A stretch of DNA of 64,000 nucleotides from Methanosarcina horonobensis HB-1 = JCM 15518 (lineage in GTDB: Archaea; Halobacteriota; Methanosarcinia; Methanosarcinales; Methanosarcinaceae). The notes below the pieces were generated by a model. That model had not been told where the DNA came from. It saw only the letters and a list, made by a program, of their open reading frames with translations, and made no database searches. The position numbers and the translations under genes are program-made. The stretch lies in the NCBI RefSeq assembly GCF_000970285.1, contig NZ_CP009516.1, positions 785,036 through 849,035 on the forward strand, given 5' to 3'. Below, one piece after another: positions 3 to 26,507 of this stretch (positions are counted from its first letter, which is position 1; each line of letters opens with the position of its first letter).

Positions 3-378
3 GTGCCTGAATTGTACGCAAAAGATCTGCAGGAATTCTTTGGCGAGTTTCGTAAATAATGGCAGCGTTTGTATCGTACTGAAATGACCGCGCCAGACCA
101 AGGTCTGACTACTTGCATTAGTCTCGAGTATGCTTCTGATGCAGGATACAGGGACAGTAACTCTTTTTTAATTTAACGAAGGAACCGGAAAACTTGACCT
201 GATAGTAGTAGCGTATAAACAGCCCGATAACAGGATTGTGCTCGGGGCAGGCCCTGTAATGAGTTATTACGAATTCTGGCAACGCTCGGGATAAAGGTTG
301 ACGGATGAAGAATGGAGAGAGATGCTGGCAAATAATCCTCCTGAAAGACCGGAATGGGTAAATTCTTTTAAGGTGTAA
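3..378 (+). pseudogene. C-terminal remnant of a DUF3160-family protein
   Basis: Several short pieces in different frames read like the end of one DUF3160 protein. Positions 3-59 give VPELYAKDLQEFFGEFRK then a stop. Around 90-178 another frame gives LEYASDAGYRDSNSF. Positions 181-378 give GTGKLDLIVVAYKQPDNR, then GPVMSYYEFW, an in-frame TAA at 292-294, then RLTDEEWREML and RPEW just before the final stop. The SYYEF...RLTDEEW...RPEW signature is what I associate with DUF3160 C-termini. At least one nonsense codon and frame changes make this a broken gene; its 5' part lies outside the window. Function of the family is unknown to me. Confidence 0.55.
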
Positions 379-9210: not shown

Positions 9211-9570
9211 TTACTCTAATTTTTTATTTTGCACCTGTGATATAGTCTTCAAAATCCCCGCAAATTCGGAGTTCAGTCTATAAAATCTCCATTTTGAGCT
9301 GTTATAGGCTTCAATGATCCCGCAGTTTTTCAAAATTGCCAGGTGGTGGGAAACCAGGTTCTGCCTCTCGTTTAACTTGAATATCAATTCGCAGACGCAG
9401 TGATCTCTTTGAGAGAGAAAGTAGGCAATCTTCAATCTTATCGGATGCCCGAGAGCACTGAATATTTCACTGGCTTTTTTGATGTCATTATCCAGAAAAT
9501 CTATTTCCTGAAGCATTTTCTCTTCCCATTCCTTTTTTTTCTCAGGGTCCGCAGGGCAGCAGTAGCTCAT
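9211..9570 (-). CDS. ArsR-family winged-helix repressor
   Basis: 119 residues. The helix-turn-helix is around QNLVSHHLAILK (70-81), preceded by the CVCEL metal-site motif (Cys58, Cys60) found in As/Sb/Cd-sensing ArsR proteins. Two adjacent cysteines at positions 4-5 (MSYCCPAD) and Cys83 may add ligands. ArsR proteins bind dyads and leave DNA when they bind metalloids. A dyad (9608-9627) covers its own promoter, so it is probably self-repressed. The ACR3 pump, permease operon and AhpD genes nearby carry similar sites, so it may control them. Confidence 0.93.
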   Translation of the reverse strand: MSYCCPADPEKKKEWEEKMLQEIDFLDNDIKKASEIFSALGHPIRLKIAYFLSQRDHCVCELIFKLNERQNLVSHHLAILKNCGIIEAYNSSKWRFYRLNSEFAGILKTISQVQNKKLE

Positions 9571-9607: not shown

Positions 9608-9627
9608 ATATCAATTTTGTTTGATAT
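9608..9627. promoter_or_regulatory. candidate ArsR operator at its own promoter
   Basis: ATATCAA-TTTTGT-TTGATAT, a perfect 7-base inverted repeat with a 6-base spacer. The left arm overlaps a minus-strand TATA-like GATATAAAAA (about 9603-9612), placing it to block the promoter of the ArsR gene that starts at 9570. A second overlapping palindrome TTTGATATCAAA lies at 9620-9631. Confidence 0.6.
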
Positions 9628-12564: not shown

Positions 12565-12584
12565 ATATCAATGAAAATTGATAT
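12565..12584. promoter_or_regulatory. candidate ArsR-type operator, AhpD2 promoter
   Basis: ATATCAA-TGAAAA-TTGATAT, a perfect 7-base inverted repeat with 6-base spacer. GTTTATTTATGG at about 12532-12543 is the likely TATA element, so transcription would start at the dyad's left edge. The AhpD-like gene begins at 12638. Confidence 0.6.
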
Positions 12585-12637
12585 GTGACTTTCTGTGTTT
12601 TATAAATCAAGATTGTAGAATTGAGTGGAGGAATAAA

Positions 12638-13003
12638 ATGCCTTTCATGAACGAAACACTGCCTGATACTGCTGAAGCATTCGGAAAACTGAGAGATTCT
12701 ATCTTTGAAGGAGGAGAACTTGACCGCAAGACCAAGGAACTTATAGCCATTGCCTCTTCTGTCCTTATGCGCTGCCAGTACTGTGTTGATGTTCACTCCC
12801 AGAGAGCTGTTGCTCACGGGGCAAACAAGAAAGAGATTGCAGAAGCTATTGCTGTTGCCATGTTTATAGCAGGAGGCTCTCAACTCGGCTGGACAAACAT
12901 CTATGGCGAAAATGTTTATGATCTCATCTTTAGAGAAAAAAAGCCTGAGGAGCCGGAAAAAGATAAATTGGAGAAAGAGAAAGGTTGCTGCTGCGGAAAC
13001 TGA
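12638..13003 (+). CDS. AhpD-like protein, second copy, Cys-rich tail
   Basis: 121 residues from the ATG after GTGGAGGAATAAA; a longer in-frame start at 12578 overlaps the operator and has no ribosome site. Same core as the 8600 gene: C46-Q-Y-C49-V-D-V-H53, with KTKELIAIASSVLMRCQYCV identical in both. The C-terminus is a lysine/glutamate linker of about 20 residues ending GCCCGN. The two genes are paralogues with independently varied tails that both keep a run of cysteines, which argues for a function of the tail in metal or thiol chemistry. Confidence 0.87.
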   Translation: MPFMNETLPDTAEAFGKLRDSIFEGGELDRKTKELIAIASSVLMRCQYCVDVHSQRAVAHGANKKEIAEAIAVAMFIAGGSQLGWTNIYGENVYDLIFREKKPEEPEKDKLEKEKGCCCGN

Positions 13004-13104: not shown

Positions 13105-14157
13105 TCAGAATCTGAATTTTTCCCTGTTCCTTTCCATGATTTTCACAAGGGAAAGCATCACAGGCACTTCCACAAGCACTCCCACAACGGTTGCGAGTGC
13201 AGCCCCGGACTCCATCCCGAATAGAATTAAGGCTACTGCTACTGCCAGTTCGAAGAAATTGCTGGCACCGATAAAGGTTGAAGGAGCAGCTTCTGAATAG
13301 GGGATTTTCAGGTATTTTGCTCCTGCATACCCGATCCCGAAAATCAGGTAAGTTTGCAGCACCAGGGGAATTGCAATCAGGAGAATATGCAAGGGATAAT
13401 TTATGATGTTGCTCCCCTGGAATATAAAAATCAGAACAAGAGTTATCAAAAGTCCTGCAGGAGTGATCCATTGTGTTCTTCGGATGAGTTTGTTTTCAAA
13501 CCATGTAATGCCTTTTTTCCTTATCACTACCTGCCTTGTCAGCACAGCAAGGCCAAGAGGAATTGCCACATAAAACAGCACCGAAAAGAAGATCGTCATA
13601 AGAGGGACCGGAAAATCGGTTGTGACTCCGAGGAGAAACTTTCCCAGCGGGGCGAAAAGGACGAGGATGATAAGGTCATTTACCGAGACCTGAATCAAAG
13701 CATAGTTAATATTAGCTCTTGCAAGGTAGGTCCAGACAAGTACCATAGCCGTACAGGGAGCAATCCCGAGCAGGATCATGCCTGCTATATACTGTGCCTG
13801 AAGATCGGAAGAAATCAGGGATTCGAAAAGCACGCGCATGAAAAGCCATGCAACAAATGCCATTGTAAAAGGCTTGATTGCCCAGTTTATGACAAGAGTT
13901 AGAAGAAGAGGTTTTAGATTTGCTTCAATGTTCAGAATTTCTTCAAAATTAATCTTTAGCATGATAGGATACATCATGATCAGTAGCACGATAGCTACGG
14001 GAATTGAAACATTTGCAATCTCGATCTCTCCAAGGGTGTCTGCAAAACCTGGAAAAATATAGCCTATTGCAGTTCCGAGTATAATACAGACTGCAACCCA
14101 AATAGAAAGGTATTTACTGAAAAAATCGAGCTCTCTTTCTTCATCGTCCTCAGGCAT
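13105..14157 (-). CDS. ACR3-family arsenite efflux permease
   Basis: 350 residues, about ten membrane segments, of the bile acid/arsenite transporter superfamily. LLGIAPCTAMVLVWTYLA (Cys135 in the fourth segment) is the ACR3 signature, and VSVNDLIILVLFAPLGKFLL follows. ACR3 exports arsenite from the cytoplasm using the proton gradient. The start overlaps the stop of the universal stress protein gene by 8 bases, so they are translated together. It lies at the distal end of the permease-thioredoxin-DGC gene run. Confidence 0.9.
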   Translation of the reverse strand: MPEDDEERELDFFSKYLSIWVAVCIILGTAIGYIFPGFADTLGEIEIANVSIPVAIVLLIMMYPIMLKINFEEILNIEANLKPLLLTLVINWAIKPFTMAFVAWLFMRVLFESLISSDLQAQYIAGMILLGIAPCTAMVLVWTYLARANINYALIQVSVNDLIILVLFAPLGKFLLGVTTDFPVPLMTIFFSVLFYVAIPLGLAVLTRQVVIRKKGITWFENKLIRRTQWITPAGLLITLVLIFIFQGSNIINYPLHILLIAIPLVLQTYLIFGIGYAGAKYLKIPYSEAAPSTFIGASNFFELAVAVALILFGMESGAALATVVGVLVEVPVMLSLVKIMERNREKFRF

Positions 14158-15236: not shown

Positions 15237-15620
15237 TTACTCGGATTGCAGAATCTCCATAACTTTTTCAAGAATCTCGGTAACCTCTTCTCCTTTTGGA
15301 TCTCTATCCTTGGTTTTCTTAACCCCTAATTCAGAAATTATGATCTGGCGGTCAACCTTGAAGCCTGCAAGCTCCATGGTTTTGGTTGCGCAGTTTACTG
15401 AGCAGCCGTCAATGGTCAATATCCTGTCAGAAGCTTCGGCAGATTTCATAAGCCCGGGGGCTCTGGCTCCGATGCCTGCAGTACACATAAGGTTTCCTAT
15501 CCCTTGCTTCTCGAGTTCAATTGCAATTTTGTTTGAGAGCTGTCCGACATTTGCCGCCCCTGCGCAGGGGAAAAGCGCAACATTTGCCGAACCGCATGAA
15601 CATTTAGTTTCTTCTGTCAT
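15237..15620 (-). CDS. DGC-domain putative zinc-binding protein
   Basis: 127 residues from the ATG (MTEETKCSCG) that follows AAGGAG; the upstream in-frame ATG at 15638 overlaps that ribosome site and is rejected. Contains the DGC motif (71-73) in TIDGCSVNCATKTME and other conserved cysteines (7, 9, 19, 46, 77). The family is annotated as zinc-binding; it is often found beside permeases and thioredoxin-like proteins, as here. Possible role in metal/metalloid or thiol handling. Confidence 0.85.
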   Translation of the reverse strand: MTEETKCSCGSANVALFPCAGAANVGQLSNKIAIELEKQGIGNLMCTAGIGARAPGLMKSAEASDRILTIDGCSVNCATKTMELAGFKVDRQIIISELGVKKTKDRDPKGEEVTEILEKVMEILQSE

Positions 15621-15691
15621 TTTTTGTCTCCTTTTCATTTAATAATTAATTCGTTTGTGCCCATTTAACTCGTTTAATGATTCACTTTGAC

Positions 15692-15925
15692 TCATTTGGT
15701 GATCCATTTCTTGATATCTTCCACACTTGGGACTTTGCCTGCGACTTTAACATCTCCGTCAATTACAAGAGCAGGGGTAATCATGACCCCGTATTCCAGA
15801 ATTTTGTCAAAGTCTTCTACTTTGACGATCTCCGCATCCACACCTGTTTCCTTAACGGCTTTTTCTGCAAGTTCTTTCGTCTTATTGCATTTGGCACAAC
15901 CCGAACCCAGTACTTCGATTCTCAT
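15692..15925 (-). CDS. small thioredoxin-like protein (redox-active disulfide protein)
   Basis: 77-residue minimal thioredoxin fold with Cys10-Ala-Lys-Cys13 in GSGCAKCNKTKELAEKAV and a TPALVIDGDVKVAGKVP segment bearing the cis-proline (ITPAL). Family members are called redox-active disulfide protein 2 or thioredoxin_3 and reduce target disulfides. It sits 123 bases after the permease and 71 bases before the DGC gene, forming the typical permease-thioredoxin-DGC trio. Confidence 0.9.
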   Translation of the reverse strand: MRIEVLGSGCAKCNKTKELAEKAVKETGVDAEIVKVEDFDKILEYGVMITPALVIDGDVKVAGKVPSVEDIKKWITK

Positions 15926-16048: not shown

Positions 16049-17101
16049 TTACATAAACATAGCTCCGAATACATACCCGGAGACGGTTGCAATTAGCACC
16101 ACCAGGAGAATATATGTCATGCCTTTTTTCACTCCCAGAACCCTGTTGATTACGATCATGCTCGGTAGACTGAGTGCCGGGCCTGCAAGGAGCATTGCAA
16201 GGGAAGGGCCTTCTCCCATACCTAGAAGAGTCAGAGCTTTAATGATGGGCACTTCCGTAAGAGTGGAGAAATACATGAGGGCTCCAGCTATCGAAGAAAT
16301 AAAGTTTGAAGTCAGGGAATTTCCTCCCACAAGAGCTGCTACATACTCTTTTGGAAGGACTACAATCGCAATCCCTGCAAAGAAAACTCCAAGCAGAAGC
16401 AGGGGAGTGATCTGTTTTACCAGGAACCAGGTTTCACCCATCCAGCTGTTTAGTTCTTCTTTTGAGAACCATTTGAAAGAGAGGAAAGCCGTAAGTCCTA
16501 TCATGGGCGCCCAGGCAAGGAGCTGAGTTGTATATTTCCATTCCAGGGAAGACATTATCTCAGGGGCTATAAGGACAACGATTAGCAAAACAAAGAGTCC
16601 GACGCTGTGTTTGTGTTCCTCTTCCCCGAAAGTCTTTATGGACTTACGTTCGGTTGCTTTTCTTTCATATGCAAGGGACATTATAACACCTACAAGCACA
16701 GACAGAAGGACTGCTGCAAAAGCGCGCGCTGCTCCGAGATCATAGCCCAGGATTTTTGCCGTATAGACGATTGCAAGGATATTGATAGCAGGGGCTGAGA
16801 ACAAAAATGTGGTTGCAGGACCTATGCCTGCTCCCCTCTTATAAATCCCTGCAAAAAGGGGGAGTACGGTACAGCTGCAGACCGCAAGGAGGCAGCCCGA
16901 AACCGCAGCTACCGTATAAGAAACATATTTGGGGGCGTCCGCTCCGAAGAACTTCAGCACAGATTCTTTGGAAAAGAGAGAAGCAATTGCACCAGCCAGA
17001 AAAAAAGCAGGCACAAGGCACATGAGCACATGGAGCGCAAGGTACTCCTGCACTGATTGAAGCCCTACTGATATAAGATAAGTGATATAATCAAGAGTCA
17101 T
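16049..17101 (-). CDS. DUF318-family permease (ArsP-like)
   Basis: 350 residues, about eight membrane segments. The signature CSCTVLPLFAGIYKRGAGIG lies near residues 80-99, with FLFSAPAINILAIV after it and a matching second half (LTEVPIIKALTLLGMGEG). PF03773 permeases include ArsP, which exports trivalent organoarsenicals. First gene of the run permease - thioredoxin - DGC - Usp - ACR3. Its promoter carries two dyads around a perfect TATA box, so it is likely repressed by an ArsR-type regulator. Confidence 0.88.
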   Translation of the reverse strand: MTLDYITYLISVGLQSVQEYLALHVLMCLVPAFFLAGAIASLFSKESVLKFFGADAPKYVSYTVAAVSGCLLAVCSCTVLPLFAGIYKRGAGIGPATTFLFSAPAINILAIVYTAKILGYDLGAARAFAAVLLSVLVGVIMSLAYERKATERKSIKTFGEEEHKHSVGLFVLLIVVLIAPEIMSSLEWKYTTQLLAWAPMIGLTAFLSFKWFSKEELNSWMGETWFLVKQITPLLLLGVFFAGIAIVVLPKEYVAALVGGNSLTSNFISSIAGALMYFSTLTEVPIIKALTLLGMGEGPSLAMLLAGPALSLPSMIVINRVLGVKKGMTYILLVVLIATVSGYVFGAMFM

Positions 17102-17137: not shown

Positions 17138-17194
17138 TTTCAGATATATTTGAAATAACATATATAAAATTTCCTATTTCAAATAAATTTGAAA
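17138..17194 (-). promoter_or_regulatory. TATA box flanked by two operator dyads, permease operon
   Basis: On the minus strand TTTATATA (17161-17168) is a consensus TATA box. It is bracketed by TTTCAA-ATAAAT-TTGAAA (17177-17194) upstream and TTTCAG-ATATAT-TTGAAA (17138-17155) at the expected start of transcription; dyad centres are 39 bp apart. Arms extend to TTATTTCA/TGAAATAA for the second. Binding at either would block initiation. Confidence 0.65.
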
Positions 17195-19341: not shown

Positions 19342-19626
19342 TTATTTTCCTGCAGATTTCCGTACCTCTTTTGTTATCTCTTTCATCATCTCTCCCACAA
19401 GTGTTGCTTTTTCGCAATGGGATGCCTCTTTGGGGCTACAGTTTATGAGTATACTCATTAGCCTGTCCGCAGTTCTGTAAAATTTCATGTCCTCGATTCT
19501 CACCAGAAGGGTGGATAAACTTTCACTAAATTCCCTGCATTTTTCATGGTCACAGACTGCCTGTTCATGCAGCCGGCTCACGCATTCTAATTCTTTAATG
19601 ACTTCAGGTGGGAGCTTTTCGGCCAT
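19342..19626 (-). CDS. hypothetical protein, helical, Cys-containing
   Basis: 94 residues, no family recognised. Mostly helical with cysteines at CDHEKC and in ILINCSPKEASHC. It follows the DsrH-like gene by 50 bases on the same strand, and so may be the last gene of the DsrE/F/H operon. Cysteine content would suit a sulfur-handling partner, but that is only context. Confidence 0.55.
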   Translation of the reverse strand: MAEKLPPEVIKELECVSRLHEQAVCDHEKCREFSESLSTLLVRIEDMKFYRTADRLMSILINCSPKEASHCEKATLVGEMMKEITKEVRKSAGK

Positions 19627-19676
19627 ATAATCCGCCCTACCAGGTTGCCTTTCACTTATTCACTACTAAGCTTCAT

Positions 19677-19973
19677 TTAAAACGTGTATGCATATTTACA
19701 GTGTTCCATTACATCCTCTATGAAAGCAGCGTAAAAGTTATCAGGAACTGTAACTTTTTCTCGGTTTTCTATCGCTCTTGCTTCGAGGTCTTCCTGGCAG
19801 GCATAAATTCTGCACCCCGGCAGTTCCTGTATACCGGAAAACAGGTGATAAACCCCATCGCTTGCAAGGTAGAGTCTGGCATTTCCGGAGTGAGCAGCCA
19901 GTTTAAGGCACAGTTCCGATCGCGGGCTGAAAGGAGGCTTTGTAAGCAGGAACACATCATATTCTTCTCGCAT
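19677..19973 (-). CDS. DsrH/TusB-like protein
   Basis: 98 residues with the DsrH/TusB outline: FLLTKPPFSPRSELCLKLA, then LYLASDGVYHLFSG and a closing MEHCKYAYTF. DsrE/F/H (TusD/C/B) proteins form a sulfur-relay complex that passes persulfide sulfur between carriers. The gene follows a DsrF-like gene by 14 bases and a DsrE-like gene further up, the standard set of three. Methanogens use such relays for tRNA thiolation or sulfide handling; the partner is unknown here. Confidence 0.7.
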   Translation of the reverse strand: MREEYDVFLLTKPPFSPRSELCLKLAAHSGNARLYLASDGVYHLFSGIQELPGCRIYACQEDLEARAIENREKVTVPDNFYAAFIEDVMEHCKYAYTF

Positions 19974-19987
19974 ACTGTTACCTCTGT

Positions 19988-20332
19988 TTAAAATAAGATA
20001 ACACAGTCCGAGCTTTCCATCGCTTCGAGAAAGTCTTTTTCATCGACAAGTTCCATGGTCTCTATCAGGGTTTCCCCAAAGAGGCCCCTCTCAATCAGCG
20101 AGGGTTCATGCACAAGTACATTTAACTCTCCATACGAGTAGAGAATATCTGAAAGGTTTGGTACTCCAAGCTTATTGCTGTCCTGGCCTGCAGCTACAAG
20201 ATAAACTCCATCTCCATAAAGGCCGAGGACCACATGCATTTTGTTAAGGCTTACTGCAGCTGCATTCAATGCTCCGAAGGCTTTTTCACTGCCGTATGGG
20301 GCAGTATCCAGCAGATAGAAAACTGATTTCAT
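19988..20332 (-). CDS. DsrF/TusC-like protein
   Basis: 114 residues: VFYLLDTAPYGSEKAFGALN matches the TusC/DsrF start (P-Y-G-S then A helix), followed by VVLGLYGDGVYLVAAGQDS and a closing SSDCVILF. It lacks an obvious active-site cysteine in the centre, as is usual for the DsrF subunit. Middle gene of the relay set, 40 bases after the DsrE-like gene. Confidence 0.75.
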   Translation of the reverse strand: MKSVFYLLDTAPYGSEKAFGALNAAAVSLNKMHVVLGLYGDGVYLVAAGQDSNKLGVPNLSDILYSYGELNVLVHEPSLIERGLFGETLIETMELVDEKDFLEAMESSDCVILF

Positions 20333-20372
20333 TGGTCTGAACCCGTTTCGACAAGCTAATCTTAATTTGTCT

Positions 20373-20747
20373 TTAAAGTGAGATTACTCTATCGCTTTTA
20401 CTCAGCATTTCCGAAAGTTCATAGAGACTGGAAATTTTTATTCCGGGGGTGTAGTCTCTACAGTTACTTCCGTTCTCGGTCTCCTCTTCTGCAGTGTAAC
20501 CTCTTGAAGCAGCACACCGCGCACAGGCTCTTATCACAGCTCCTTTCTCCGCAAGCCCGGCAAAAAGTTCGCCTGTGTTTGTAAAAAATGATGGATTCTG
20601 ACCTTTTTTAGGTATATGAACTGCGTCCAGGTACAGGAATATATTCACATGACATTGTTTAAGCGCACTTTCGGCAAGCTTGCAGGCAATCTCAGCGTAT
20701 TCGGAAATATAAGGGCCGTCAGTGAGCACTATGGTTAATGTCTTCAA
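20373..20747 (-). CDS. DsrE/TusD-like sulfurtransferase subunit
   Basis: 124 residues. Starts LTIVLTDGPYISEYAEIACK, has VNIFLYLDAVHIPKKGQ, and the catalytic region VIRACARCAASRGY with a C-x2-C; in DsrE/TusD one cysteine here carries the persulfide. The C-terminus ISSLYELSEMLSKSDRVISL is standard. First of the three relay genes and 68 bases after the Fe-S regulator gene, so all four are probably one transcript. Confidence 0.8.
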   Translation of the reverse strand: MKTLTIVLTDGPYISEYAEIACKLAESALKQCHVNIFLYLDAVHIPKKGQNPSFFTNTGELFAGLAEKGAVIRACARCAASRGYTAEEETENGSNCRDYTPGIKISSLYELSEMLSKSDRVISL

Positions 20748-20815
20748 AGGCTCCTCCGGTTAAAGTGAAATCTCTTCAAGTAATTGCAGAATAGTCATAG
20801 TTCAGGCACCTTTAC

Positions 20816-21613
20816 TCATATATACGCACTCAAAACCTGCAGGTGTTCGAGGTTGGTTGTATATCCCGGTTCTTTAAGAGATGTGCATTTGTCCAGGGTA
20901 GTTTCCCCTCCCATGAGCTTTATTGCAAATGTGTAACAGCTCTGTTCGCTGCATTTCCCGCAGTTGGTCTGAGGCAGGTATTTATAAATCTCCATGGGTT
21001 CGACCCTTACCTTTTCCCTGGGAGCCGGAGCAACGCCTTTTGCTATAGCTTCATTGATCGTGCTCTTCAAGTTTTCAAGCCTGCTTCTGGCTTCTTCCTC
21101 ATTTTTGATCATGGTCATGGTAACTTTTCCGGTGCCGTATATGGTAGTGATGACCTCGTTTTGCTGTATCATAAGAGCACCTATTCCATCAGAGTACCTG
21201 CTTCTCGAGAAAATTGGTTCCAGAACTTTAAGCACCCCTCCGAGAGGCGGAGCCATGTTTGCAATTGTCCTGAACTTTGAAGAGTCCGCTATGCAGGGCA
21301 AAAGCTGCCTTACTTCTGTAACCTCGACAGGTCTGGCCTGTGAGAGGTCTGCACCCTTCCCCTGCTCTTTTTCCTCTTTACCTTTAAGGAAATTCCTGCC
21401 ATATTCGGTCAAGCTTGCAGTCCCTTCATTTAGCTCTATCAGGCCTGCTTGCTGCAGGACTTTAAGATGGAAGTCGAGCATGGCTTTTCCGGCTGTAGCT
21501 CCTATTTCCTCAACTGTTCTATCGCCATTAGCAAGGAAGTTCATAATCTTCCTTCGGGTAGCATTGGACATAGCATTATTTACCAGCTTTATCTCATTTG
21601 GGTTTCCGGACAT
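20816..21613 (-). CDS. HTH regulator with C-terminal [4Fe-4S] domain
   Basis: 265 residues from the ATG (MSGNPNEIK) 7 bases after AGGTG. The N-terminus is an ArsR-like winged helix (ATRRKIMNFLANGDRTVEEI). A middle region of unknown fold follows (DGIGALMIQQNEVITTIYGT). The C-terminus is a PF04060-type Fe-S domain: Cys218, Cys221, Cys226, Cys243 in TNCGKCSEQSC...LDKC, the pattern found in CdhE/CdhD and RnfB. It would sense redox state, sulfur or metal through the cluster and switch the DsrE/F/H genes behind it. A TCAA-N6-TTGA dyad lies upstream at 21759. Confidence 0.85.
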   Translation of the reverse strand: MSGNPNEIKLVNNAMSNATRRKIMNFLANGDRTVEEIGATAGKAMLDFHLKVLQQAGLIELNEGTASLTEYGRNFLKGKEEKEQGKGADLSQARPVEVTEVRQLLPCIADSSKFRTIANMAPPLGGVLKVLEPIFSRSRYSDGIGALMIQQNEVITTIYGTGKVTMTMIKNEEEARSRLENLKSTINEAIAKGVAPAPREKVRVEPMEIYKYLPQTNCGKCSEQSCYTFAIKLMGGETTLDKCTSLKEPGYTTNLEHLQVLSAYI

Positions 21614-21958
21614 TTCCAACACCTGTAAGAATCCTAAAATTTAACCCCACACTTTTTTCCTGATGCTCGTTAGCTATCAGGCAGATTTTTTCTAAAAAAT
21701 GAAATCCGATTTCTCTTATTAATTATGGAACTGACTTCTTAAAAACCCGAAAGCCCGATATCAAAAAAGATTGATACGAAAAATCTTAATGGTTAGTTTC
21801 TGGGGAAAGAAGATGGATTCACGGCTGTTTAAGCCAGAGGGTAGTTTGAGCCAAAGGCAGTCGAAATGGAAAAAATAGGGAGGATGAGGGTTTAACCTGA
21901 ACCTCTTTCATTTAATTAAATTTTTGTTTATAAAGTGAACCTGATAATAAAGCTTTTT
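21614..21958. other. intergenic between Fe-S regulator operon and first amt gene
   Basis: 345 bases. It holds the dyad at 21759-21776 and the 3' end of the amt transcript. A minus-strand AT-rich stretch near 21713-21726 (TAATTAATAAG) may be the TATA element of the regulator operon. Nothing else recognised. Confidence 0.35.
21759..21776. promoter_or_regulatory. candidate ArsR-type operator upstream of the Fe-S regulator operon
   Basis: TATCAA-AAAAGA-TTGATA, a perfect 6-base inverted repeat with 6-base spacer, 146 bases upstream of the regulator's ATG. It has the same arms as the dyads at the ArsR gene and at AhpD2. Confidence 0.5.
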
Positions 21959-23176
21959 TCAGAAAACCCCTGTATCATAGGCACATTCTCCATGGATTGA
22001 GATATCCAGACCTGCAAGTTCTTCTTCATCCGAAACCTTGACAGGGGTTATTATGTCTATCAAAATCAGCATGACATAAGTAAATACAAATGCGTAGATT
22101 GAAGTAATCACAACAACCACGAGTTCTTTGATAAAGAATGCAGTGCCACCGTAAAGCAGCCCGTCAGTGCCTGCAGGATTTATAGCCGTAGATGCAAAGA
22201 CTCCAAGGAGAATTGTTCCGGTCACGCCTCCGATTCCATGAACCCCCCAGACGTCAAGGGCATCATCCCATTCCATTCTGTTTTTGATATGAACCGCAAG
22301 ATAGCAGGTAATAGCTCCGATGATACCCATCAATGCAGCAACGGGCATACTAACAAGACCTGCTGCAGGAGTAACTGTTGCAAGACCGGCAACTGCTCCT
22401 GTCATGAACCCTACAAATTTTGGTTTTGTTTCTTTTAACCATTCTATTATCATCCAGGTAATAGCTGCAAAAGAAGCTGCAATATCACTGTTCAGGAATG
22501 CAAGTGCCGTAATTCCGTCCACATTTAGTTCACTGCCAGCGTTAAAACCGTACCAGCCAAACCAGAGGAGTGCAGTTCCTATAGCCATTAAGGGGATGCT
22601 ATTTGGCTTTGAATCTTTATATTTCCTTGAGCCCACGTAAAAGACCGAGGCAAGGGCTGCAGCTCCTGCTGTCGCGTGAACAACTATTCCGCCTGCAAAG
22701 TCAAGAACTCCCATTTCTGCAAGCAGACCACCTCCCCAGACCATATGGGCAAAAGGATAGTAAACAAAGAGTTGCCAGACGACCAGGAAGATAAGATAAG
22801 CCTTAAAAGTAACCCTGTTTGCGAATGCTCCTGTAATAAGGGCCGGAGTAATGATTGCAAACATCATTTGATAAGCTACGAAAACAAGTTCCGGGAATCC
22901 TCCGTTTTTAAATGGAGTAAGCGGAGTGATCCCATGCAAGAACATCTTGTCCAGGTCTCCTATAATTGCGCCTTCTCCCCCACTGAAGCATAGAGAATAC
23001 CCGACAAAAAACCACAAAATAGTTGTTATTCCCAGAGAAACAAAACTCTGCATCATAATTCCTAATATATTTCTCTTACAGGCAAGCCCTCCGTAAAAGA
23101 ATGCCAGACCAGGAGTCATAAGCATTACAAGACTTGTCGCAAGCAGCATAAAGCCTGTTGAACCAGTGTTTAACAT
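21959..23176 (-). CDS. amt: ammonium transporter, Amt/MEP/Rh family (copy 1)
   Basis: 405 residues, about eleven membrane helices. Asp159 and His167 (DFAGGIVVHATAG) and His313 (DVWGVHGIGG) match the AmtB ammonium-binding Asp and twin-His pore. It conducts ammonium/ammonia into the cell. The C-terminal LAGLDISIHGECAYD is the conserved tail that GlnK touches. It is a close duplicate of the gene at 23771: the first 49 residues and the sequence before the ATG are the same. Confidence 0.95.
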   Translation of the reverse strand: MLNTGSTGFMLLATSLVMLMTPGLAFFYGGLACKRNILGIMMQSFVSLGITTILWFFVGYSLCFSGGEGAIIGDLDKMFLHGITPLTPFKNGGFPELVFVAYQMMFAIITPALITGAFANRVTFKAYLIFLVVWQLFVYYPFAHMVWGGGLLAEMGVLDFAGGIVVHATAGAAALASVFYVGSRKYKDSKPNSIPLMAIGTALLWFGWYGFNAGSELNVDGITALAFLNSDIAASFAAITWMIIEWLKETKPKFVGFMTGAVAGLATVTPAAGLVSMPVAALMGIIGAITCYLAVHIKNRMEWDDALDVWGVHGIGGVTGTILLGVFASTAINPAGTDGLLYGGTAFFIKELVVVVITSIYAFVFTYVMLILIDIITPVKVSDEEELAGLDISIHGECAYDTGVF

Positions 23177-23190
23177 TTTTTCATCCCATC

Positions 23191-23215
23191 TTTTTTATAT
23201 AATAACTCGGAAACC
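23191..23215 (-). promoter_or_regulatory. amt copy 1 promoter with nif-like half site
   Basis: Minus-strand TTATATAAAAAA (23191-23202) is a TATA element 15-27 bases before the ATG. Just upstream, CGGAAACC on the plus strand (23208-23215) equals the centre of the distal nif operator (CCGGAAACCGG). Confidence 0.35.
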
Positions 23216-23624
23216 TCATACACGCCTCCTCTTTCCTAGTTACTTTTATTTAACTCTTTCCAGTCCTTTGATTCATAACTTAATCTCAAGACAGATTTTT
23301 CTGGCAAAGATGGTTAAGAGATAGAGATATATCGATACAGAAAAAGCGGAAATGGACAGAAAAAAATACTCGAAAAAACCAGTAGTAGGAAAACTTGTTT
23401 GCTTAAGTTAAACGAAGACCTTTATTCTTTTTACTAAATTTTTTATTAGAAAGTTCAAACAAAATTTTATACTTTTAAAGTCTCTGGCTTTGTCCTCGCT
23501 TTTCTTCAATCACCTGTTTTCAGAGAAAGTAAGCTGAAGACTATTTTAAAGAGAAAAGCAAGAAATATGGAGGCAAGGATTTATCCTCCCTCCCTTTACC
23601 TGATCAAATAAACCTGCTGAAAAG

Positions 23625-23720
23625 AAATCTGTTTTTAAGGAAATTCGTTTTTAAGGAAATTTGTTTTTAAGGAAATTTGTTTTTAAAGGATTTTTTCGTT
23701 TAGAGAAATACGTTTTTAAA
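23625..23720. repeat. 16-bp tandem repeats between the amt genes
   Basis: Four near-identical 16/17-base units (AAATTTGTTTTTAAGG and variants) run from 23625 to 23689, with a fifth diverged copy at 23706-23720. They lie 3' of amt copy 2. On the minus strand they are A-rich. Possibly slippage product or terminator-related; no known family. The rest of 23216-23624 is AT-rich spacer with no gene. Confidence 0.6.
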
Positions 23721-23770
23721 CCCTTTACTGCGAATAAAAAATACATTTTTTGTAGGTTTTAAGAATTTTA

Positions 23771-24985
23771 TCAGTGAATCGCATCGTATGCACATTCCCC
23801 GTGCATAGACATATCCAGACCTGCAAGTTCTTCTTCGTCCGAAACTTTGACTGGTGTTATTATGTTTATAAGCATCAGCATAATGTAGGTAAACACAAAT
23901 GCATATATCGAAGCGCCTACAACAACCACGAGTTCTTTGATAAAGAATGCAGTACCACCGTAAAGCAGTCCGTTAGCTCCCACCGGGTTTATGGCAGTTG
24001 AGGCAAAGATTCCAAGGAAAATTGTCCCTGTTACTCCTCCGATTCCGTGAACTCCCCATACATCCAGGGCATCATCCCATTCCATCCTGTTTTTAATATG
24101 CACTGCAGAGTAGCATACAATAGCTCCGATAATACCCATTAATGCAGCCACATGCATGGAAACAAGACCTGCTGCAGGGGTAATGGTTGCAAGACCGGCA
24201 ACTGCTCCTGTCATAAGCCCTACAAACTTCGGTTTTGTTTCTCTTAACCATTCTATTATCATCCAGGTAATAGCCGCAAAAGAAGCTGCAATATCGCTGT
24301 TCAGAAATGCAAGTGCTGTGATCCCGTCTACATTTAGTTCACTGCCAGCATTAAACCCGTACCAGCCAAACCAGAGAAGTGCAGTTCCTATAGCCATTAA
24401 GGGAATGTTGTTTGGCTTTGAATCTTTATATTTCCTTGAGCCCACGTAAAAGACCGAGGCAAGGGCTGCAAATCCGGCCGTTGCATGAACCACGATTCCG
24501 CCTGCAAAGTCAATGACCCCCATACTTGCAAGCAGGCCGCCTCCCCAGACCATGTGGACAAAAGGATAGTAAACAAAAAGCTGCCAGATGACAAGGAAAA
24601 TAATGTAAGCCTTAAAAGTGATTCTGTTTGCAAATGCTCCCGTAATAAGGGCCGGAGTAATGATTGCAAACATCATTTGATAAGCTACGAAGACGAGTTC
24701 CGGGAACCCCGCGCTCCCAAACATATCAGTCGGGGTAATCCCATTCAAAAACATTTTGTCCAGGTTTCCCAGGATTGCACCTTCTCCTCCACTGAAGCAC
24801 AGAGAATATCCCACGCAAAACCATAAAATAGTCGTCAGCCCGAGAGAAACAAAACTTTGCATCATAATTCCTAAAATGTTTCTCTTACAGGCAAGCCCTC
24901 CGTAAAAGAATGCCAGACCAGGAGTCATAAGCATTACAAGACTTGTCGCAAGCAGCATAAAGCCTGTTGAACCAGTATTTAACAT
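23771..24985 (-). CDS. amt: ammonium transporter, Amt/MEP/Rh family (copy 2)
   Basis: 404 residues, nearly the same protein as copy 1 throughout, with the same DFAGGIVVHATAG and DVWGVHGIGG pore motifs. Differences cluster in the loop around residues 85-95 (TDMFGSAG against TPFKNGG) and at the C-terminus (LAGLDMSMHGECAYDAIH). The GlnK-contact tail is retained. The upstream sequence is also duplicated. No GlnK gene is attached to either copy. Confidence 0.95.
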   Translation of the reverse strand: MLNTGSTGFMLLATSLVMLMTPGLAFFYGGLACKRNILGIMMQSFVSLGLTTILWFCVGYSLCFSGGEGAILGNLDKMFLNGITPTDMFGSAGFPELVFVAYQMMFAIITPALITGAFANRITFKAYIIFLVIWQLFVYYPFVHMVWGGGLLASMGVIDFAGGIVVHATAGFAALASVFYVGSRKYKDSKPNNIPLMAIGTALLWFGWYGFNAGSELNVDGITALAFLNSDIAASFAAITWMIIEWLRETKPKFVGLMTGAVAGLATITPAAGLVSMHVAALMGIIGAIVCYSAVHIKNRMEWDDALDVWGVHGIGGVTGTIFLGIFASTAINPVGANGLLYGGTAFFIKELVVVVGASIYAFVFTYIMLMLINIITPVKVSDEEELAGLDMSMHGECAYDAIH

Positions 24986-25000
24986 CTTTTCATCCCATCT

Positions 25001-25025
25001 TTTTTATATGATAAACTAGGAAGCC
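25001..25025 (-). promoter_or_regulatory. amt copy 2 promoter with nif-like half site
   Basis: Minus-strand CATATAAAAAA (about 25001-25011) parallels the copy 1 TATA element. GGAAGCC (25019-25025) equals part of the proximal nif operator (CCGGAAGCCGG). The remaining 25026-25302 is AT-rich with no gene. Confidence 0.3.
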
Positions 25026-25302
25026 TCAAATCTCTTACCTCCTTCCTACTTTATTCTACTTAATATTTTCTACTTTTTCAAATAAAAATAAAAGTATTAA
25101 AATAAATCTCAAAGAATGGATGGTTAAGAATGGGTTGAAAATTGTTAAAAATAAGGGAAAATACGGGATAAAGAGAGAAAAAAACAAAAATAGAAATTCC
25201 TGTTAAAACTCGGAAAAATAGAACTGATTCTTTTTTGTCCATGAAACTGAACCAAAAATTAGAAAGGTACAGGTGGGTTAACCTGTACTTAAATTGTATG
25301 AC

Positions 25303-26496
25303 TCAAATGTTATATGCAGCTTCACCGTGCTGTGTTTTGTCAAGTCCTATGTTTTCTTCACTCTCACTGACTTTGAGCCCTATAGTTTTGTGGAGCACAA
25401 ACCCGATAGCCAGTGTACAAACACTTGCATAGACAAGTGTGGCAATGACGCCTTCTATCTGGAGCATCAGCTGTTCGTAGTTGCCGAGCAGGAGACCAGT
25501 GGATCCTACACTTGCAAACACTCCTGTTATGATTGCACCTGTTATCCCGCCTACTCCATGGACTCCGAAAGCATCAAGGGAGTCGTCATAACCGAATCTT
25601 CCTTTGAGCATTACGGCCTGGTAGCAGATAAAGCTTGTAATCGCCCCAATTGGAATTGCTGCCATTGGGGTAACAAAACCTGCAGCCGGTGTTATTGCAA
25701 CAAGCCCTGCCAGGACGCCGGTCGCAAACCCGAGGGCAGTAGGGCGCCCCAGATGGATCCATTCAAGGGACATCCAGACAAACCCTGCAGCTGCTGGAGC
25801 TACGAGTGTTGTAATGAAAGCGAGGGCTGCGATCTCATTTGCAGCAAGGGAGGATCCAGCATTGAACCCGAACCATCCGAACCAGAGAAGCCCGGTTCCG
25901 AGGAGAGTGAGGGTAACATTATGCGGCTTTATGGAATCTACCCCGTATCCTCTTCTCTTTCCGAGGAAGGTCAGAATTGCAAGGGAAGAAATACCCGATG
26001 TTATATGGACGACAGTGCCTCCTGCAAAGTCAAGGGCTTCTCCTGTCAGAAATCCGCCGCCCCAGACCCAGTGGCAGACGGGTGCGTAGACAATCAGTCC
26101 CCAGAGTGCAATGAATGCAATATATGATTTGAATTTAACACGCCCGACTATAGCTCCCGATATCAGGGCAGGAGTAATTATTGCAAACATTCCCTGAAAT
26201 GCAACAAATGCGTATGTTGGAATTGTTCCTGTTACCGAGTAAGGATCAATTCCCCGCAGAAATAGATGTTCAAGGCTGCCCACAAATCCGTTACCTTCTC
26301 CAAAGGCAAGAGAGTAACCTATTATAACCCATTCGAGAGCCATTACTCCCATTGCAACAAATGAGTGCATCATGCTGCTAAGAACGTTCTTACGTTGAAC
26401 AAGCCCTCCATAAAATAGTGCAAGCCCGGGGAGCATTAATAATACCAGTGCTGATGAAATCAACACCCATACGGTATCTGCTGCTACAATAGCCAT
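25303..26496 (-). CDS. amtB: ammonium transporter, Amt/MEP/Rh family (diverged copy 3)
   Basis: 397 residues from the ATG (MAIVAADTVW) after GGTGG; an upstream in-frame TTG overlaps the glnK stop. Same fold and pore residues (DFAGGTVVHITSG, DAFGVHGVGGITG) but clearly diverged from copies 1 and 2. C-terminal GLDKTQHGEAAY is the GlnK-binding tail. It starts 11 bases after glnK, the classic glnK-amtB operon, so this is the copy most likely gated by GlnK. Confidence 0.95.
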   Translation of the reverse strand: MAIVAADTVWVLISSALVLLMLPGLALFYGGLVQRKNVLSSMMHSFVAMGVMALEWVIIGYSLAFGEGNGFVGSLEHLFLRGIDPYSVTGTIPTYAFVAFQGMFAIITPALISGAIVGRVKFKSYIAFIALWGLIVYAPVCHWVWGGGFLTGEALDFAGGTVVHITSGISSLAILTFLGKRRGYGVDSIKPHNVTLTLLGTGLLWFGWFGFNAGSSLAANEIAALAFITTLVAPAAAGFVWMSLEWIHLGRPTALGFATGVLAGLVAITPAAGFVTPMAAIPIGAITSFICYQAVMLKGRFGYDDSLDAFGVHGVGGITGAIITGVFASVGSTGLLLGNYEQLMLQIEGVIATLVYASVCTLAIGFVLHKTIGLKVSESEENIGLDKTQHGEAAYNI

Positions 26497-26507
26497 TCTT
26501 ATCCACC

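Follow-up and report, generated by a model that had tools for sequence, protein, structure and literature searches.

Outside the locus reported here, sulfur transfer of the TusBCD type is familiar from the thiolation of tRNA and the oxidation of sulfur; the closest described counterparts are TusBCD of Escherichia coli and DsrEFH of Allochromatium vinosum. In a window of 64,000 nucleotides from the archaeon Methanosarcina horonobensis HB-1 (the whole stretch of DNA analysed), genes of the DsrE, DsrF and DsrH families, one of each, likewise lie side by side. The DsrE active-site cysteine is kept as Cys75, and the TusB-like protein has a conserved Cys22. Unlike the described systems, however, the archaeal relay comes without TusE/DsrC, which was detected in 0 of 6 genomes tested (E. 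coli control positive). Its TusD and TusC fall below the NCBI equivalog cut-offs, and the operon is headed by a protein combining HTH, TBP-like and Fe-S domains, with ars-type genes around it.

Each part of this head protein, hereafter the regulator, has a described relative from which it departs. As in ArsR/SmtB metalloregulators, the N-terminal HTH scores above the PF01022 cut-off and matches ArsR folds, yet it has no CVC motif, scores 27.5 against an HTH_metalloreg cut-off of 55 bits, and is joined to TBP-like and Fe-S domains. The middle domain resembles TBP significantly by both profile and fold, but has one repeat rather than two, a conserved cysteine in its first strand and a score below the Pfam TBP cut-off. 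The Fe-S part shares the CX2CX4CX16C pattern of CdhE/AcsC and RnfB, with its four cysteines conserved, whereas its attachment to an HTH and a TBP-like domain, with no corrinoid or electron-transport domain, is unlike either. With ars operons (ArsR, ACR3, ArsP, ArsC, ArsM) the locus has islands and a palindrome in common. To our knowledge, no described ars operon combines such an Fe-S regulator with TusDCB. A literature search found none, nor any description of the HTH-TBP-FeS fusion or of DsrE in Methanosarcina. In Thioalkalivibrio, arsenite differentially changed the expression of DsrE/F-like genes of unclear role (PMC6620896).

Re-reading the open reading frames in the window gave a five-gene operon, all on the minus strand (Table 1), with a gap of 68 bp between regulator and TusD, in agreement with the first-pass annotation in genes, coordinates and spacing. 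Upstream of the operon lie three tandem ammonium transporter genes (window 21959–26499).

Table 1 Features of the operon, its ars-type surroundings and its palindromes (window coordinates, or residues for domains of the regulator)
Feature	Position	Strand	Remarks
94-aa Cys protein	19342–19626	-	no family match
TusB/DsrH-like	19677–19973	-	PF04077, TIGR03011
TusC/DsrF-like	19988–20332	-	PF02635
TusD/DsrE-like	20373–20747	-	TTG start
Regulator	20816–21613	-	ATG start, 265 aa
Regulator, ArsR-type HTH	residues ~13–62		PF01022
Regulator, single TBP-like domain	residues ~97–192		invariant Cys107/Arg115
Regulator, CdhE/RnfB-type FeS domain	residues ~205–248		Cys218/221/226/243
Canonical ArsR/SmtB regulator (ArsR1)	9211–9570	-	CC near the N terminus, CVC motif; candidate owner of class A sites
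AhpD-like gene	12578–13003
ACR3 arsenite efflux transporter	13105–14157	-	TIGR00832 above cut-off
DGC-domain protein	15237–15638	-	PF08859
Thioredoxin-like, MTH895/ArsE family	15692–15925	-	TIGR00412
ArsP_1 permease	16049–17101	-
Class A palindrome TATCAA-N6-TTGATA, regulator promoter	21759–21776		operator-like
TATA-like GGTTTTTAAG	21738–21747	-	~12 nt downstream of the regulator palindrome, by eye
Class A palindrome before ArsR	9609–9626		38 nt ahead of start; same distance in 8 loci
Class A palindrome before AhpD-like gene	12566–12583
Class B palindrome TTTCAA-N6-TTGAAA before ArsP_1 permease	17177–17194

The regulator had been annotated as a winged-helix protein carrying a CdhE/RnfB-type cluster domain, and HMM searches bear this out: the Pfam ArsR family PF01022 matches the HTH (E = 3.5e-6) and the Fe-S family PF04060 matches residues 213–244 (E = 3.3e-11), both above cut-off. 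Solved ArsR chains are among the matches of the HTH in profile and fold searches, and the Fe-S part matches the corrinoid/iron-sulfur protein chains 4djd/2h9a at ~2e-11, as well as RnfB chains. The cluster cysteines hardly vary among orthologues: in the alignment, Cys218, Cys221 and Cys243 are invariant in 34/34 regulators and Cys226 is present in 33/34, being absent from one second copy.

The middle region, in which the first-pass annotation recognised no fold, proved to resemble TBP. A profile of the regulator alignment, searched against solved structures, matches M. jannaschii TBP (2z8u) at 8.4e-6, and at 2.7e-7 with a wider alignment. The same structure is the top Foldseek match of the AlphaFold2 model (E = 8.1e-4, rmsd 2.4 over 80 columns). 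The best model has a mean pLDDT of 77, the other four 51–58, and pTM is 0.48; the Pfam TBP match, at residues 149–187, is sub-threshold (18.5 bits vs a cut-off of 22.9). Sequence thus gives good support, and the predicted structure moderate support, to a single TBP-like repeat in this region. Cys107 and Arg115 are invariant across 21 divergent members of the family so defined, HTH-less ones included. The domain occurs standalone in ~100-aa proteins, with the Fe-S domain in widespread ~180-aa proteins of other archaeal families, and with the HTH as well in the regulators.

Behind the regulator, likeness to TusD, TusC and TusB is supported by PF02635 for the first two and PF04077 for the third; among the NCBIfam models, only that of TusB (TIGR03011) is matched above its cut-off. 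Cys75 of TusD, which aligns with the A. vinosum active-site cysteine, is invariant, as are TusD Cys78 and TusB Cys22, and the TusC-like protein has no invariant cysteine. A SaoD/selenium-associated system was rejected, the SaoD/DsrE match in NCBIfam being weak (0.011) and far below cut-off and the literature silent for these archaea. The 94-residue protein, first described as a Cys-containing unknown, again found no known family by HMM or structure search; it has no PDB sequence match, and its fold matches are generic helical bundles only (E > 0.2). It is all-helical and restricted to Methanosarcinaceae, with Cys25 nearly invariant and Cys30, Cys63 and Cys71 conserved. In Methanothrix a ferredoxin occupies its position.

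A scan of GTDB genomes returned 28 regulator relatives in Methanosarcina, Methanothrix and related Methanosarcinales. By tblastn on the loci, the order regulator–(second regulator)–TusD–TusC–TusB recurs in Methanosarcina, related Methanosarcinaceae and Methanothrix far more often than chance allows, and a chance origin is ruled out by recurrence in two families. A second regulator copy is frequent before TusD, and the 94-aa gene joins the operon in Methanosarcinaceae; the genome of the window has another copy of the cluster, with two regulators followed by D, C and B. TusD of the operon type (E ≤ 1e-18) is present in 35/393 sampled genomes of the phylum. All 33 genomes with a close TusD (E ≤ 1e-49) also encode the three-domain regulator or, in G351, an HTH-less relative, and the two genomes with a more distant TusD have neither. 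Three genomes (G051, G134 and G293) have a full-length regulator without such a TusD, G361 has both intact and far apart, and both are missing from G004, G010, G011, G017 and G019 among the first genus-level genomes, some of them incomplete.

A decayed TusD remnant between the two regulators in one locus (L036:8853–9086) and a third, partial regulator copy in another (L040:2541–3191) make it seem that the cluster grew by tandem regulator–TusD duplication. In several genomes, soluble MtrA-like and DUF6951-like proteins adjoin the regulator (L064:5457–6337, L110:4214–5870), a possible tie to corrinoid chemistry.

Within 12 kb in the window lie genes for ArsR, AhpD, ACR3, a universal stress protein, a DGC-domain protein, an ArsE-type thioredoxin and ArsP_1. 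In Methanothrix, DsbA-like and CcdA genes precede the operon and a ferredoxin and an ArsC-like gene follow it; ArsR is divergently oriented, and ACR3 lies farther out. A different Methanothrix lineage has ACR3 immediately before the regulator. Elsewhere, HTH-less TBP-like genes accompany ArsP, thioredoxin, DGC, ACR3 or TauE genes.

The region at 21759, already singled out in the first-pass annotation, contains a conserved operator-like palindrome, which we term class A. It is kept in 14/14 aligned Methanosarcina regulator promoters, with the spacer TCTTTT almost fixed. Pattern matching with the exact class A motif across genomes found 3–8 sites per regulator-bearing complete genome, against 0–2 for the reversed control. 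In seven genomes, which are related and so not independent, 32/39 exact sites lie within 21 kb of a regulator; with regulator-promoter sites left out, 23/30 do so against 0.35 expected, the relatedness making any p-value only indicative. With one mismatch allowed, the window has 5 sites against 0.31 expected. Deduplicated sites precede the regulator (36), ArsR (11, of which 8 at exactly 38 nt), the second ArsP-type permease ArsP2 (8), AhpD (7) and the arsenite methyltransferase ArsM (1), and ~29 further sites have no assigned gene, some being within coding sequence. Near-palindromes with at most one mismatch occur in Methanothrix in the divergent region between ArsR and the DsbA-CcdA-regulator operon. 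By eye, the palindrome lies upstream of a TATA-like element in the regulator and AhpD promoters, and downstream of TTTATATA in the permease promoters. A second class, B, precedes ArsP_1-thioredoxin-DGC genes at many loci, including the window, and stands before a TBP-FeS operon of an unrelated family as well.

Because the regulator promoter carries the same palindrome as nearby arsenic-defence genes, the operon probably belongs to an arsenic/thiol-stress response. The fuller reading, to which we give about an even chance (roughly 0.5), is that it forms part of a response to soft metal(loid)s, most plausibly arsenite, and to thiol stress in aceticlastic methanogens, wired through ArsR and with the Fe-S protein as a second layer. 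We are led to it by the conserved operon, the domains and cysteines of its products, the clustering of the palindrome and the genes that it precedes, and the ars-type flanks in Methanothrix. The canonical ArsR repressor encoded at another place in the island, or more than one ArsR-type factor, would occupy the palindrome in the regulator promoter; binding of a thiol-reactive metalloid to ArsR would then allow expression of the operon together with ArsR, AhpD, the ArsP-type permease and ArsM. The protein encoded first in the operon, with its HTH, TBP-like and predicted [4Fe-4S] domains, may report damage to its cluster or cysteines and tune transcription locally, as that second layer. TusDCB, working without TusE, could direct persulfide sulfur to the repair of thiols or Fe-S clusters, or to arsenic-sulfur chemistry, with the 94-aa protein (ferredoxin in Methanothrix) as a putative redox or metal-binding helper. 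Some observations count against this reading: in the regulator and AhpD promoters the TATA-like element comes after the palindrome, an arrangement more typical of an activator; one 560-contig draft genome (G016) keeps the regulator and its site with no ArsR1 match; and the ~29 deduplicated sites mentioned above stand before no assigned gene. Aceticlastic methanogens produce much of the methane derived from acetate, and such a response would link a sulfur-transfer complex lacking its usual TusE partner to apparent arsenic or thiol stress in these organisms. The predicted operator and gene set are specific and can be tested in the genetically tractable Methanosarcina.

The first-pass annotation had instead proposed a self-sensing system. 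Spelled out as a private circuit, this would have an Fe-S/HTH autoregulator whose cluster reads redox state or sulfane sulfur, and which binds the palindrome at 21759 and controls TusDCB. In its favour, the regulator heads an operon whose gene order two archaeal families share, it has conserved cysteines for the cluster, and its own HTH is of the ArsR type; the palindrome, moreover, is found in the regulator promoter of every aligned Methanosarcina locus, and G016 has site and regulator with no ArsR1 match. However, the palindrome also fronts genes unrelated to the relay, namely ArsR, AhpD, the ArsP-type permease and ArsM, and in G019 class A sites are kept at ArsR with no regulator detected. 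Every Methanosarcinaceae genome checked that has both ArsR1 and the regulator carries an exact class A site before the latter, and the exact site is absent from this position in the regulator-bearing G194, G270, G293, G134 and G051. In the complete genome G270, which lacks ArsR1, the site is degraded and TusDCB intact; in G194, also complete and without ArsR1, class B replaces class A, as it does at locus L054. Since the site stays at ArsR in G019 and is altered in the ArsR1-less G270 and G194, the comparison favours an ArsR-type factor other than the regulator as the main binder, although the regulator may bind as well. The private circuit is thus unsupported as stated, and we consider it unlikely. 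The regulator gene of G270 has an in-frame stop at codon 71 (L082, G270:C1:940492 region).

It is likewise improbable, in our estimate, that the locus is a generic thiol/disulfide-stress island whose relay works for tRNA thiolation or the general supply of Fe-S clusters, with only incidental regulation. Arsenicals attack thiols, and the ars-type genes may therefore mark such an island rather than arsenic itself; CcdA/DsbD, thioredoxins, AhpD and the universal stress protein are recurrent neighbours, and TusA is detected in Methanosarcina. Against this, TusE is missing from the six genomes tested, the search for TusA was negative in two Methanothrix genomes carrying the operon, and the ACR3 and ArsM proteins within the islands score above curated cut-offs.

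We are more doubtful that the TBP-FeS part serves mainly as a partner protein for the relay, either as a scaffold for Fe-S clusters or as a persulfide acceptor in place of TusE, to which the HTH, and with it the tie to DNA, was added later. HTH-less TBP-FeS proteins are indeed widespread, one of their genes overlaps tusD of the TusD-TusC-TusB operon in G351, Cys107 is invariant even where the HTH is lacking, and TusE/DsrC is absent from the genomes tested. Yet the HTH is present in all aligned Methanosarcina and Methanothrix copies except pseudogene-like ones, and three genomes have solo regulators without TusDCB.

Least probable, and in our view very unlikely as a whole, is a new class of archaeal activator in which the palindrome shortly before the TATA element would be bound by the ArsR-type head, the TBP-like module with its invariant cysteine and the [4Fe-4S] tail would gate how the basal machinery is recruited, and the TBP-FeS module would accept sulfur from TusDCB in place of TusE. 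Transcription would then be set by the flow of sulfur through the relay.

Before ArsP_1-thioredoxin-DGC genes, class B palindromes are often paired ~39 bp apart, in several archaeal families (L036:12369/12408, L041:8460/8499, L069:6724/6764). One also lies just upstream of a further operon (L099:3852–6149), which encodes a thioredoxin-like protein, a TauE-type permease, a universal stress protein and an HTH-less TBP-FeS protein.
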